Part shown: one piece after another, positions 53,997 through 58,535 of the stretch | Position numbering within the stretch: the first letter of the stretch is position 1 | How the letters are laid out: the number at the start of each line of letters is the position of its first letter | Origin: Glycomyces algeriensis | GTDB taxonomy: Bacteria; Actinomycetota; Actinomycetes; Mycobacteriales; Micromonosporaceae | Direction: 5' to 3' | NCBI RefSeq assembly: GCF_027622855.1 | Contig: NZ_JAPZVR010000002.1 | Location: 452,681 to 516,680, forward strand | Length of the DNA stretch: 64,000 bases | Notes under the pieces: model-generated | Told to the model about the DNA's origin: nothing | What the model saw: only the letters and a program-made list of their open reading frames with translations | Databases searched by the model: none | Position numbers and translations under genes: made by a program

Positions 53997-56591
53997 ATGA
54001 CCGCACCACGCCCTGAGGGCCCCGCGCCGGAGGACTTCAGTTCCTCCGAGGAGCTGCGCTCGGCCCTCACACTGCTCGCCCGCGTTCCGCAACTGCTGAT
54101 CGCGTGCGACTACGACGGCACGCTCGCGCCGATCGTGACCGATCCTTCGCAGGCGATGCCGCTCCCCGAGTCGGTCTCGGCTCTGCGGACGCTGGCGAAC
54201 CTGCCGCAGACGAAGGTCGCGGTCATCTCCGGCCGGGCGCTGCGGGATCTGGCGGCACTCTCCCGCCTCCCTTCCGAGATCCACCTGGTCGGGTCCCACG
54301 GATCCGAGTTCGACGTCGGCTTCACCCGGGCGCTCTCCAGCGAGGACCAGCGGTTGCGCGACAAGCTCGTAGCCGAGCTGTCCGCGATCGCCGAACGCTA
54401 CGAGGGCGCCCGGGTCGAGCCCAAGCCCGCCGGCTGCGCACTGCACGTCCGGGAGGCGTCCGAGGCCGACGCGATGCGCGCGGTCGAGGACGTCCACGAA
54501 GGACCGTCCACTTGGGACGGCGTGCAGACCACCGAGGGCAAGGCCGTCGTCGACCTGTCCGTGGTCACCACCCACAAGGGCGACGCGCTCGACAAGCTGC
54601 GCCACCAGCTGGGGGCCTCCGCGGTCCTCTTCCTGGGCGACGACGTGACCGACGAGAATGCGTTTGCGCACCTGCACGGCCCGGACGTCGGCGTCCGCGT
54701 CGGCCCCGGCCCCACCCGCGCCTCGTTCCGCATCGGCGACCCCGAGGACGTCGCGAAGCTCCTCGCCCGCCTCGTCGACACCCGCCGCGCCTGGCTCCAG
54801 GGCGAGCAGGCGCAGCTCATCGAGCGCCACACGATGCTCGCCGACGGCGCCAACCACGCGCTCCTCACCCCCGACGGGCGCGTCACCTGGATGTGCCACC
54901 CGCGCCCCGACTCCGGGTCGGTCTTCGCCGACCTCCTCGGCGGCGAGCACGCCGGTCACTTCAGCGTCCAGCCCGTCAACGCCGGCATCCCCCTGGGCCA
55001 GCGGTACGTGTCCGGCACGATGACCGTCGAGACCCGGTGGCCGGGCCTCTCGGTCACCGACTGGCTCGACTCCACGCCGCGCCGCCGCGGCGACCTCAAC
55101 GCCACCGTCCTCGTCCGCGAGATCAACGGCGAGGTCCCCGTCAAGATCACCTTCGCCCCGCGGCCCGAGTTCGGGCAGCTGCCCGTGCAGCTCCAACCCG
55201 TCGGCGACGACGGCCTGCGCGTCCTCGGCGGCCGTGAACCGATCAGCCTGCGCTCGCCGGGCGTGGACTGGCACATCGAGTACGACGGCCAGCACTCGCT
55301 CGCCGTCGCCGTCGTCGACCTCGCCGCCGTCGGCGGCTCCGTGGTCCTCGAGATGCGCTCGGGATCGGCGAGCCTCGACGAGTGGAAGCCCGCCGTCAAC
55401 GTCCGCCGCCGCACCACCGAGGCCGGCTGGCGCAACTGGTCGGACTCGCTCAAGCTCCCGCGCGTGGAGACCGAGATGGTCTCCCGCTCCGCGCTGGCGC
55501 TCAAGGCGCTCTGCTACCAGCCCACGGGCGCGATCCTCGCCGCCGGCACCACCTCGCTGCCCGAGGAGCTCGGCGGCGTCCGCAACTGGGACTACCGCTT
55601 CTGCTGGATCCGCGACGCCGCGATGACCGCGAACGCGCTCGTCGACCTCGGCTCGCTCCAAGAGGCCGAGGCGTACTTCGCATGGGTCGCCGGCATCCTC
55701 GAGCGCACCGCGGGCCACCCCGAGCGGCTCGCCCCGCTCTACGACATCGAGGGCATGGCGCCCAGTCCCGAGGCGATCATCGACACGCTCCCCGGGTACG
55801 CCGGGGCGCGGCCGGTGCGCATCAACAACGCCGCGTCGAACCAGGTCCAGCTGGACGTGTTCGGCCCTGTGGCGATGCTCGTCGAGGCGGTCGCGCAGCG
55901 CCGCGGGCACCTCTCGGACTTCGAGCAGCAGGTCCTCGGCAGCATGGTCGAGGCCGTCGCCAAGCGCTGGCACGAACCCGACCACGGCATCTGGGAGGCC
56001 CGCCAGGCCCCCCGCCACCACGTGTACTCGAAGGTCATGTGCTGGGTGACGGTGGACCGCGCGCTCAAGGTCGCGGACCACTTCGGCATGGAGTACGGCC
56101 CGAACTGGCACGAGCTGCGCGACCAGATCGCGAAGAACGTGCTCGAACTGGGCTGGAACGACGAGGCCGGGGCCTACACGGCCGCGTACGGCCACGACGA
56201 CCTCGACGCCGCGTCGCTGTGGATCGGCCTCTCCGGGCTGCTCCCGCCGGACGACCCGCGCTACCTCAGGACCGTGCTCAAGATCGAGGCCGGGCTGCGC
56301 TCGGGCCCGACGGTCTACCGCTACCACCGCGACGACGGCCTGCCGGGCACCGAGGGCGGGTTCATCATCTGCGCCGCCTGGCTCGCCGAGGCGTACCTGC
56401 AGGTGGGCCGCCGGACCGACGCCGAGGAGCTGTTCGAGCAGATCCTCGCGTGCGCGGGCCCGACCGGCCTCCTGCCCGAGCAGTGGGACCCGATCGCCGA
56501 GCGCGGCCTGGGCAACCACCCGCAGGCGTACTCGCACCTGGGCCTCATCCGGGTCGCGAATCTGCTGAACGGCCAAAGCGGACGCATCTAA
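53997..56591 (+). CDS. Trehalose-6-phosphate phosphatase fused to GH15 hydrolase (trehalase-like)
   Basis: An 864-residue two-domain protein. Residues 1-255 are an OtsB-type HAD phosphatase: DYDGTLAP with Asp38 and Asp40, SGR motif near 75-77, and LGDDVTDENAF near 215-225. From about 275 to the end is a glycoside hydrolase family 15 domain, with RNWDYRFCWIRDAAMT near 526-541, a GMAP..INNAASNQVQLDVFG-type active-site region, and EGGFIICAAWLAEAYLQVGR-like sequence near the end. GH15 members in this branch are trehalases or glucoamylases. So one chain could form trehalose and also split it. ATG 53997 has GGAGAG upstream. No frameshift joins the domains; both reading frames are continuous. Confidence 0.92.
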   Translation: MTAPRPEGPAPEDFSSSEELRSALTLLARVPQLLIACDYDGTLAPIVTDPSQAMPLPESVSALRTLANLPQTKVAVISGRALRDLAALSRLPSEIHLVGSHGSEFDVGFTRALSSEDQRLRDKLVAELSAIAERYEGARVEPKPAGCALHVREASEADAMRAVEDVHEGPSTWDGVQTTEGKAVVDLSVVTTHKGDALDKLRHQLGASAVLFLGDDVTDENAFAHLHGPDVGVRVGPGPTRASFRIGDPEDVAKLLARLVDTRRAWLQGEQAQLIERHTMLADGANHALLTPDGRVTWMCHPRPDSGSVFADLLGGEHAGHFSVQPVNAGIPLGQRYVSGTMTVETRWPGLSVTDWLDSTPRRRGDLNATVLVREINGEVPVKITFAPRPEFGQLPVQLQPVGDDGLRVLGGREPISLRSPGVDWHIEYDGQHSLAVAVVDLAAVGGSVVLEMRSGSASLDEWKPAVNVRRRTTEAGWRNWSDSLKLPRVETEMVSRSALALKALCYQPTGAILAAGTTSLPEELGGVRNWDYRFCWIRDAAMTANALVDLGSLQEAEAYFAWVAGILERTAGHPERLAPLYDIEGMAPSPEAIIDTLPGYAGARPVRINNAASNQVQLDVFGPVAMLVEAVAQRRGHLSDFEQQVLGSMVEAVAKRWHEPDHGIWEARQAPRHHVYSKVMCWVTVDRALKVADHFGMEYGPNWHELRDQIAKNVLELGWNDEAGAYTAAYGHDDLDAASLWIGLSGLLPPDDPRYLRTVLKIEAGLRSGPTVYRYHRDDGLPGTEGGFIICAAWLAEAYLQVGRRTDAEELFEQILACAGPTGLLPEQWDPIAERGLGNHPQAYSHLGLIRVANLLNGQSGRI

Positions 56592-56690: not shown

Positions 56691-58535
56691 TTGAGCTCCC
56701 CCACTCCTGCCATCCCCGGCTACCGCGACTTCGCGATGGTCGCGCACGGGTCGACCGCGTTCGTCTACACCGCCGTCCAGGAGCGGCTCGACCGCACGGT
56801 CGCCGTCAAGGTCCTGCTCGTCGACGACGACATGACCACCGCGGACTCGGTCGAGAAGGAGCTCGAGGCCACCGTCGCGGTCTCGAACCACCCCCACATC
56901 GTCTCGATCATCGACACCGGGCATACCGACGCCGGGCAGCCGTACATCGTCATGGAGTACTGCGAGGGCGGTTCCTACTCCGCGATCCTCAAGGCCGGCG
57001 GGCCGCTGCCCGTGGACGACGTGATCGACATGGGCGTCAAGATCGGGCAGGCGCTCCAGGCCGCGCACAGCGCGGACATCCTCCACCGGGACGTCAAGCC
57101 GCAGAACATCCTGCGCGGCCAGTACGGGCCCGCACTGGCGGACTTCGGCATCGCGCGCACCCCCGCCTCGCTGGCCGCGACCGCCGCGATCGACAAGCTC
57201 ACGCCGCTCCACGCCTCCCCTGAAGCACTCCTGCGCCAGGCCCAGACCTCCGCGAGCGACCTGTTCAGCCTCGCGTCGAGCATGTGGCACCTCCTGGCCG
57301 GGTACGCGCCGTTCGCGAACCCCCAGGGCGGCACCGACCCCGACACGCACCGCGAGCGCGTCACCTCCGACGCGCCGCCGCCGAAACTCCCCCGCGACGA
57401 CGTCCCCGAATGGCTCGAGAGCCTGCTCGTGCGCGGCCTCTCTCGCGACCCGGCCCGCCGCCCCGCCTCGGGGCAGGCGTTCGCCGAGGAGCTCCAGCGC
57501 GGCATGTACGGCGGCGGGGTCGGCAAGGCCGCCGCGCCCGCCGTGATCGGCGACGTGAGCAACGAGGAGACGGTCTACCGGCCCGAGGTCGCCTCGCGCG
57601 GCACGCGGGTGCCGCTGGACCCGTTCGCGCCCGTGCAGCAGATGCCGATGCCCGACCGGGGCGGCACGCTCGGCGGCGGCATCACCGGGGGCCGCACCGG
57701 CGGTTACGCCGGGGAGCTGGGCCACCCGGTCGACCCGCGGTACGCGCAGCTCGACGGCCTCGCCCAGGGCGGGACGCAGGGCGGGCCGGTCTCGGCCGCG
57801 CCGTTCTCGGGCGTGCCGATGAGCGGGCAGCCGTTCTCGGGGGCGCCCATGAGCGCCCAGCCGTTCTCCGGCGCGCCGCAGAGCGCGCTCCACGCCGCTC
57901 CCGGCATCGCCCCGTACTCCGCGCCCCCGCAGGCGCCGGTGAGCATGCAGCCGCCGCCGATGCCGTGGGGGCAGCAGGCAGCGCAGTCGCCGCAGTCGCC
58001 GCAGTCCTCCGTGCAGGAGCAGGTGTTCGCGCCGCCGGTGATCGGCCGCGACGGGTCCAAGCCGCGCAAGACCCAGGCGTACAAGGCGCCCAAGCCGGTG
58101 CAGCCGAAGCAGAAGGACGAGCGCAGCCTCAAGTCGTACGTGTACCTCGGGCTCACGATCACGGTGCTGCTCGGCGGCATCATGACCGTGTGGCTGTGGC
58201 TCATCTCCCCGAACCGGGACGCCGAGGACCTCGACCAGGCGAACACCGCGGGCGACGCCGCGCAGGAGCTCACGATCGCGTCGTGGGAGGACGGCTCGGT
58301 GAGCCTGACCTGGGGCGCGGCCGAGGACGCCGAGGGCCTGCGGTACATCGTCTTCGCCCAGCGGGTGGGCGACGAGAAGGCCGAGCCGCTCAACCCGGAC
58401 GGCACCACGGCGACCGAGTTCTCCGCCGCGGGCCTGATCCCCGGCGAGGACTACTGCTTCACCGTGGGCGTGTTGCGGGCCGTCGACGACGTGCCGATGT
58501 CGGAACCGGTCTGCACCGCCGATCTGCCCGACTGA
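56691..58535 (+). CDS. Membrane Ser/Thr protein kinase with C-terminal fibronectin-like domain
   Basis: 614 residues. Kinase domain about 10-270 with Lys40 (VAVKVLL), HRD Asp134 and DFG 151-153; the Gly-rich loop is degenerate (VAHGSTAFVYTA) and the APE motif is SPE, yet catalytic residues are present. A Pro/Gly/Ser linker (about 290-470) contains three FSGxPMS repeats. One helix at about 482-503 is followed by an external domain of about 100 residues with the W...L.W pattern of fibronectin type III and two Cys. TTG start after AGGAA. It follows the trehalose genes but has its own leader. Its ligand is unknown. Confidence 0.88.
   Translation: MSSPTPAIPGYRDFAMVAHGSTAFVYTAVQERLDRTVAVKVLLVDDDMTTADSVEKELEATVAVSNHPHIVSIIDTGHTDAGQPYIVMEYCEGGSYSAILKAGGPLPVDDVIDMGVKIGQALQAAHSADILHRDVKPQNILRGQYGPALADFGIARTPASLAATAAIDKLTPLHASPEALLRQAQTSASDLFSLASSMWHLLAGYAPFANPQGGTDPDTHRERVTSDAPPPKLPRDDVPEWLESLLVRGLSRDPARRPASGQAFAEELQRGMYGGGVGKAAAPAVIGDVSNEETVYRPEVASRGTRVPLDPFAPVQQMPMPDRGGTLGGGITGGRTGGYAGELGHPVDPRYAQLDGLAQGGTQGGPVSAAPFSGVPMSGQPFSGAPMSAQPFSGAPQSALHAAPGIAPYSAPPQAPVSMQPPPMPWGQQAAQSPQSPQSSVQEQVFAPPVIGRDGSKPRKTQAYKAPKPVQPKQKDERSLKSYVYLGLTITVLLGGIMTVWLWLISPNRDAEDLDQANTAGDAAQELTIASWEDGSVSLTWGAAEDAEGLRYIVFAQRVGDEKAEPLNPDGTTATEFSAAGLIPGEDYCFTVGVLRAVDDVPMSEPVCTADLPD
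57801..57890 (+). repeat. Three 30-base tandem repeats coding PFSGxPMSxQ
   Basis: Units at 57801-57830, 57831-57860 and 57861-57890 encode ten-residue repeats in the kinase linker. Confidence 0.75.

Follow-up and report, generated by a model that had tools for sequence, protein, structure and literature searches.

Bacterial OtsB proteins (TIGR00685; entries 6upb-6upe, 6qj6, and 5gvx) share HAD motifs I to IV with the fusion protein described here, which differs from them by an additional C-terminal TREH_N-GH15 portion and, in a clade of Arthrobacter-type fusions (hereafter the dead clade), by the loss of the catalytic aspartates. In mycobacteria, GH15 trehalases are encoded by genes that we take to be Rv2402 and MSMEG_4535. 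The mycobacterial, Microvirga, and archaeal enzymes, as covered in part of PMC10969515, combine TREH_N with GH15 and share the catalytic glutamate pair with the fusion; the fusion, in contrast, is joined to OtsB, branches apart from the stand-alone GH15 proteins, and lies below the TreH1 cut-off. Isomaltose glucohydrolase (5z3a-f and 7c24-7c27) has the same GH15 fold with an aligned catalytic pair, but acts on a different substrate, lacks an OtsB domain, and is about 21% identical. OtsB1 of Mycobacterium tuberculosis (Rv2006, 1327 aa), another large OtsB-type protein whose fused hydrolase probably belongs to GH65, may parallel the dead clade. In that organism only OtsB2 has trehalose-6-phosphate (T6P) phosphatase activity and the function of OtsB1 is unknown, according to a portion of PMC11046441. 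Fusions of trehalose-6-phosphate synthase with phosphatase (TPS-TPP, or OtsA-OtsB) likewise unite domains of the same pathway (PMC1769515, in excerpt), however these join two synthetic steps, whereas OtsB-GH15 joins synthesis with breakdown. No description of an OtsB-GH15 fusion was found among the titles and abstract openings listed for the subject. A section of PMC8171050 places a 2.6-kb T6P phosphatase gene of Arthrobacter sp. PAMC25564 under GH15, presumably such a fusion judging from its size and family, and a 3.2-kb T6P phosphatase of the same genome under GH65.

The window, meaning the whole 64,000-nucleotide stretch of Glycomyces algeriensis DNA analysed here, encodes OtsB and GH15 in one continuous frame, as the first-pass annotation had proposed (Table 1). 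Translation gives 864 residues without an internal stop, and the Pfam search suggested at that stage placed both domains far above their cut-offs, with 109.4 bits for Trehalose_PPase (PF02358; cut-off 27) and 190 bits for Glyco_hydro_15 (PF00723; cut-off 22). Between them lies a TREH_N domain that had gone unnamed (273 bits versus 23.1), as is typical of GH15 trehalases. The linker between OtsB and TREH_N is coding and is predicted to form a helix, and the frame is 89-97% identical in three named Glycomyces and kept in 8/8 sampled genomes of the genus, window genome included. Because the frame is conserved across many genomes, chance, a frameshift, or an annotation join is ruled out as its origin, in agreement with the original view that no frameshift is needed.

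Table 1. Features of the OtsB-GH15 locus, with positions counted from the first letter of the window.
Feature	Position	Strand	Basis
otsA, sole GT20 match of the genome	52513..53931	+	462 bits, E 2e-138
OtsB-TREH_N-GH15 fusion protein, 864 aa	53997..56591	+	Translation, Pfam, NCBIfam
HAD trehalose-6-phosphate phosphatase domain, residues 37-227	54105..54677	+	Pfam; motifs I-IV
Helical join OtsB/TREH_N, helix 249-267	54741..54797	+	Structure model
TREH_N trehalase-like N-terminal domain, residues 262-478	54780..55430	+	Pfam
GH15 catalytic domain, residues 491-854	55467..56558	+	Pfam; E667 (GIWE), E828 (LLPE)

The HAD motifs of the OtsB half are complete, namely DYDGT (motif I, D38 and D40), SGR (motif II, S78), K194 (motif III), and GDDVTDE (motif IV, D215, D216, and D219), with roles as set out for a T6P phosphatase in part of PMC4081830. 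The same half reaches 127.9 bits on TIGR00685, above the curated cut-off of 68.05, so that the description of a complete HAD phosphatase stands. All seven of these residues occur in 40/40 aligned active-type fusions, a set that includes the window protein and omits the near-identical L082-L089. E141 and K143 align with E123 and K125 of StT6PP, which presumably contact the sugar. A genome search returned a single OtsB match, the fusion itself, which supports a putative T6P phosphatase role for this half; since the genome also has a single OtsA, the OtsAB pathway would need the phosphatase half of the fusion. One further TREH_N/GH15 protein (paralog L002) is encoded on another contig.

The GH15 half was likewise described as complete, a description borne out by its catalytic glutamates. 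In the alignment with the isomaltose glucohydrolase entry 5z3d, E667 and E828 fall on chain positions 198 and 355, which would correspond to E178 and E335 assuming a 20-residue offset; E178A and E335A mutants are named in PDB entry titles of the 5z3 series. Missing GH15 acids, which had been put forward as grounds for rejecting the assignment, were not found: E667 and E828 match the catalytic pair of this solved enzyme in position, and both are invariant in a 39-sequence alignment. The model of the fusion has a pLDDT of 89.2 and a pTM of 0.82, with the domain arrangement judged from pTM alone. Foldseek places this model with T6P phosphatases and its GH15 half with glucoamylase, glucodextranase, and dextran dextrinase (1lf6, E 1.7e-19; 1ug9; and 5z3 matches), the half showing an (alpha/alpha)6 barrel with an N-terminal beta domain. 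A phmmer search of the PDB with the window protein alone (E 0.001) gave no GH15 match, and a profile search did match.

The otsA gene was correctly located just upstream of the fusion, with 65 bases separating its end from the fusion ATG and a GGAGAG 10 bases 5′ of that codon. The window OtsA is without 12 bases (four residues, GADL) at about 53064, at a short CCTGG repeat, that are kept by 10/10 Glycomyces-type relatives compared; the stretch includes an aspartate that we take to bind glucose 6-phosphate in E. coli OtsA. The gap is either a real deletion or an assembly error, and the absence of residues kept by relatives makes the T6P supply of the window strain uncertain. At the Glycomyces albidus locus (L012, 3300-4990), the first half of otsA was not found and other, N-free sequence stands in its place, reflecting either rearrangement or misassembly. 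Downstream of the fusion, a serine/threonine protein kinase gene (56691-58535, +) begins 99 bases past the fusion stop on the same strand; inspection by eye shows a membrane segment in its product, followed by a C-terminal portion.

A full-length match to the fusion is present in at least 115 of the 298 genomes of the window's order, so that the fusion, treated as unusual in the first-pass annotation, is real but common, and rarity is ruled out. Scoring was confined to the 2 to 6 best candidates in each genome, which makes the genome counts for the order and the phylum lower bounds. Among the 116 full-length matches of the order scan, 18 carry a flag for an internal stop in the aligned region; four of these 18 (L096, L098, L128, and L129) were read as a single frame spanning the two domains. 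Scanning genome contigs gave at least 79 loci among its best 80 matches, and phylum-wide at least 8 of 396 genomes had matches beyond E 1e-120, six of them fused and two GH15 only. Full-length fusions among the matches listed come from Glycomyces, Stackebrandtia, Micromonospora, Rhizocola, Salinispora, Catellatospora, and Arthrobacter hankyongi, as well as from metagenome-assembled genomes labelled Acidimicrobiales, Phycisphaerales, and Deltaproteobacteria; a Nocardia farcinica record matches across 97% of the query. Two OtsB-GH15 fusions (L101 and L102), both with their motifs intact, occur in one genome (G111), and otsA adjoins just one of them.

Directly upstream of the fusion and on the same strand, otsA is found at 37 of 61 fused loci, a set that includes duplicates (L001, the window genome; L091, identical to L099) and L023. 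It is absent there from the other 24, some of which offer only 1.3 to 2.5 kb of upstream sequence, and 11 of these belong to the dead clade. At L017 otsA lies on the other strand, and at L020 and L021 an OtsA-like frame is located downstream. The association also takes other forms: in one Salinivirgaceae and one Rubritalea genome (L025 and L068) an OtsA-OtsB fusion is followed by a GH15 gene, and in Sulfitobacter otsB adjoins a GH15 gene in eight plasmid records among the matches listed, with otsA on the opposite strand at a distance of about 2 kb in the one record inspected. Since the L025 and L068 GH15 proteins fall on the stand-alone side of the GH15 tree, the pairing of OtsB with GH15 probably arose more than once. 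No other evidence speaks as strongly as this repeated pairing for the two activities belonging to one process.

The GH15 tree, a quick LG+G4 reconstruction of 132 sequences that carries a warning of long-branch joins, omits the duplicates L091 and L112 as well as L023, whose GH15 frame ends early and which was also left out of residue counts. One side of the tree holds 48 active-type fusions, 11 dead-clade fusions, and four unfused proteins, and the other holds 67 stand-alone GH15 proteins (paralog L002 included) with the GH15 proteins of L025 and L068. The branch leading to the fused side has SH-aLRT support of 100 and a length of 0.59 changes per column, which marks the fused GH15 domains as a subfamily of their own, apart from the stand-alone ones, in a tree without a sequence identified as a characterised trehalase. 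On the simplest reading, this topology would reflect a single ancient fusion and several later losses. The four members of the fused branch without an OtsB domain (L033, L093, L094, and L095) indicate that GH15 can do without OtsB; the first of these, read from the preceding stop, has about 170 residues before TREH_N with no Pfam match, perhaps an OtsB remnant.

The proposal that the otsA-fusion pair both makes and breaks down trehalose is supported in part, namely for the fusion, the adjoining otsA, and the GH15 acids, and trehalose hydrolysis by the GH15 half is likely in view of the strong TREH_N match. The best NCBIfam matches of this half are archaeal trehalase models, with a weak match to an oligosaccharide amylase model (46 bits). 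The window fusion scores 336.5 bits on archaeal TreH1 (NF041084) against a cut-off of 820 and is not a TreH1 equivalog; all fused and unfused GH15 proteins scanned fall below this value, four fused proteins scoring 322-348 bits and five unfused 362-409. The tree, in which no sequence was identified as a characterised trehalase, and the lower archaeal-model scores form the main weakness of the trehalase assignment, and the separate branch, at 0.59 changes per column, means that the substrate may differ from trehalose.

Of particular relevance to the purpose of the fusion is the dead clade, made up of the A. hankyongi sequence (L016) and those from ten genomes belonging to a single family (L092 and L116-L124). 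The OtsB half of these 11 sequences reads NYGGT and GDAxSD, and they group together with support of 100 in the GH15 tree. With the 28 best-scoring new loci from a search using a dead-clade query, the set grows to 39 sequences (38 distinct). In their OtsB half D38 is replaced by N, D40 by G, D216 by A, and T218 by S in 39/39, and thus all are without the motif-I aspartates of a T6P phosphatase. In a Brugia T6P phosphatase, replacing either motif-I aspartate abolished detectable activity, as stated in a portion of PMC4081830. Other OtsB residues persist in 39/39 (S78, G79, R80, S100, H101, G102, E104, K143, P144, H150, K194, D215, and D219), deviations being found at E141 (V in 3/39), G195 (changed in 31/39), R152 (2/39), and E220 (1/39). 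By the spacing given in the same part of PMC4081830, D215 and D219 would be the two motif-IV magnesium ligands. D532, R539, D540, E667, and E828 of the GH15 domain are likewise kept in 39/39, and a decaying GH15 half is ruled out by the retention of both acids here and in the window protein.

With its stripped domain, L092 scores just under the TIGR00685 cut-off (65.8 versus 68.05 bits) and above that of Pfam (57 versus 27). The dead-clade domain is predicted to be folded, with residues 33-35 under pLDDT 50, in a model built on an alignment also holding active-type sequences. Median dN/dS in the dead clade is 0.205 for the OtsB domain (55 pairs) and 0.111 for GH15, with higher values in the active-type set (0.349 and 0.256, respectively), all of them rough pairwise Nei-Gojobori estimates on GC-rich genes. 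By this rough estimate, the dead-clade OtsB domain is under purifying selection. A second OtsB is encoded in 10/10 dead-clade genomes checked, with coordinates adjoining the sole otsA match. Nine of these proteins read DxDGT and GDDxTDE (L136-L139, L142, L140, L141, L143, and L145), the motif-III pattern being unmatched in L142, and L144 reads DFDGV, SGR, and GDD. The locus search found no otsA around the dead-clade fusion gene, and three neighbouring frames scanned yielded one Pfam match, a luciferase-like monooxygenase. In one genus of the same family, the dead-clade protein has matches with E values of 1e-200 or lower in 92 of 121 genomes, some of these matches being partial or broken (G854, G915, and one copy in G931); the more distant window protein recovered at least seven genomes of that genus. 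The kept active-site residues favour, without proving, a ligand-binding role for the dead-clade OtsB domain, and they could serve folding only.

We tentatively favour, at a little under an even chance, a protein that acts as both phosphatase and trehalase and in which T6P, sensed by the OtsB half, also controls GH15. OtsA would use a sugar nucleotide and glucose 6-phosphate to form T6P, which the OtsB half would dephosphorylate to trehalose, and the GH15 half would split trehalose into two glucoses when the pool is to be drawn down. The OtsB half would double as a T6P reader, its occupancy setting GH15 activity via helix 249-267 and thereby preventing a futile trehalose cycle; such control through the join is our reading, and the sign that would fit best is GH15 being inhibited as long as T6P occupies the OtsB half. 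A more far-reaching version, possible at most, is a T6P-gated trehalase in which synthesis and breakdown are mutually exclusive and the dead clade represents a pseudophosphatase stripped of catalysis to become a dedicated T6P receptor. In plants and yeast, T6P is known to act as a signal. Within Arthrobacter, OtsA together with T6P governs the growth switch and cell form of strain A3, as reported in part of PMC5685639, which provides a precedent there for T6P as a signal. As a side idea, phosphate released by OtsB would activate GH15 if the phosphate requirement reported for the mycobacterial GH15 trehalase holds.

The first-pass annotation had offered setting of the trehalose pool, glucose recycling, or substrate channelling as reasons for the fusion. 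Of these, channelling or glucose recycling alone is weakened by the dead clade, which lost the catalytic aspartates and yet retains the fusion: channelling cannot explain retention of a stripped phosphatase and is ruled out as a general explanation, and T6P control becomes the better common account. The most durable rival is a plain bifunctional enzyme, in which a shared chain would secure co-expression, a fixed ratio, or trehalose turnover without cross-talk. The intact sites, the adjoining otsA, the wide occurrence of the fusion, and the existence of unfused neighbouring versions are all consistent with it, yet we regard it as doubtful, since the stripped OtsB stays in frame under purifying selection in a clade with another OtsB, a situation hard to explain by channelling or simple co-expression. 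A structural role there is possible, and the OtsB half might chiefly brace TREH_N/GH15 through folding or oligomer contacts, its sole remaining role in the dead clade. A helix spanning the join, the pTM of 0.82, and W266 (in 52/55 of the fused clade and a gap in 62/65 stand-alone proteins, which start near there anyway) point that way, but motifs II and III of the active site and two residues of motif IV persist in 39/39 dead-clade sequences, and four GH15 proteins of the fused branch manage without OtsB, making this account unlikely. Least probable is a GH15 half with a different alpha-glucoside as its substrate, such as an isomaltose-, maltose-, or glucosylglycerol-type product, so that the gene would not serve trehalose breakdown, an idea that draws on the separate branch, on isomaltose glucohydrolase and glucoamylase as best solved profile and fold matches, and on archaeal trehalase scores lower than those of stand-alone GH15 proteins, and that is opposed by the strong TREH_N match, by archaeal trehalase models as best NCBIfam matches with oligosaccharide amylase far behind, and by linkage to OtsA and OtsB in three forms.

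For annotation, such fusions can bear a T6P phosphatase label, as is presumably the case in the example given in part of PMC8171050. The fusion alone is of modest interest; it is the clade with a stripped OtsB that poses the question of a T6P-reading pseudophosphatase gating a trehalase. If the dead-clade protein still binds T6P, it would represent a concrete case of a T6P receptor in bacteria and would show how they prevent a futile trehalose cycle.
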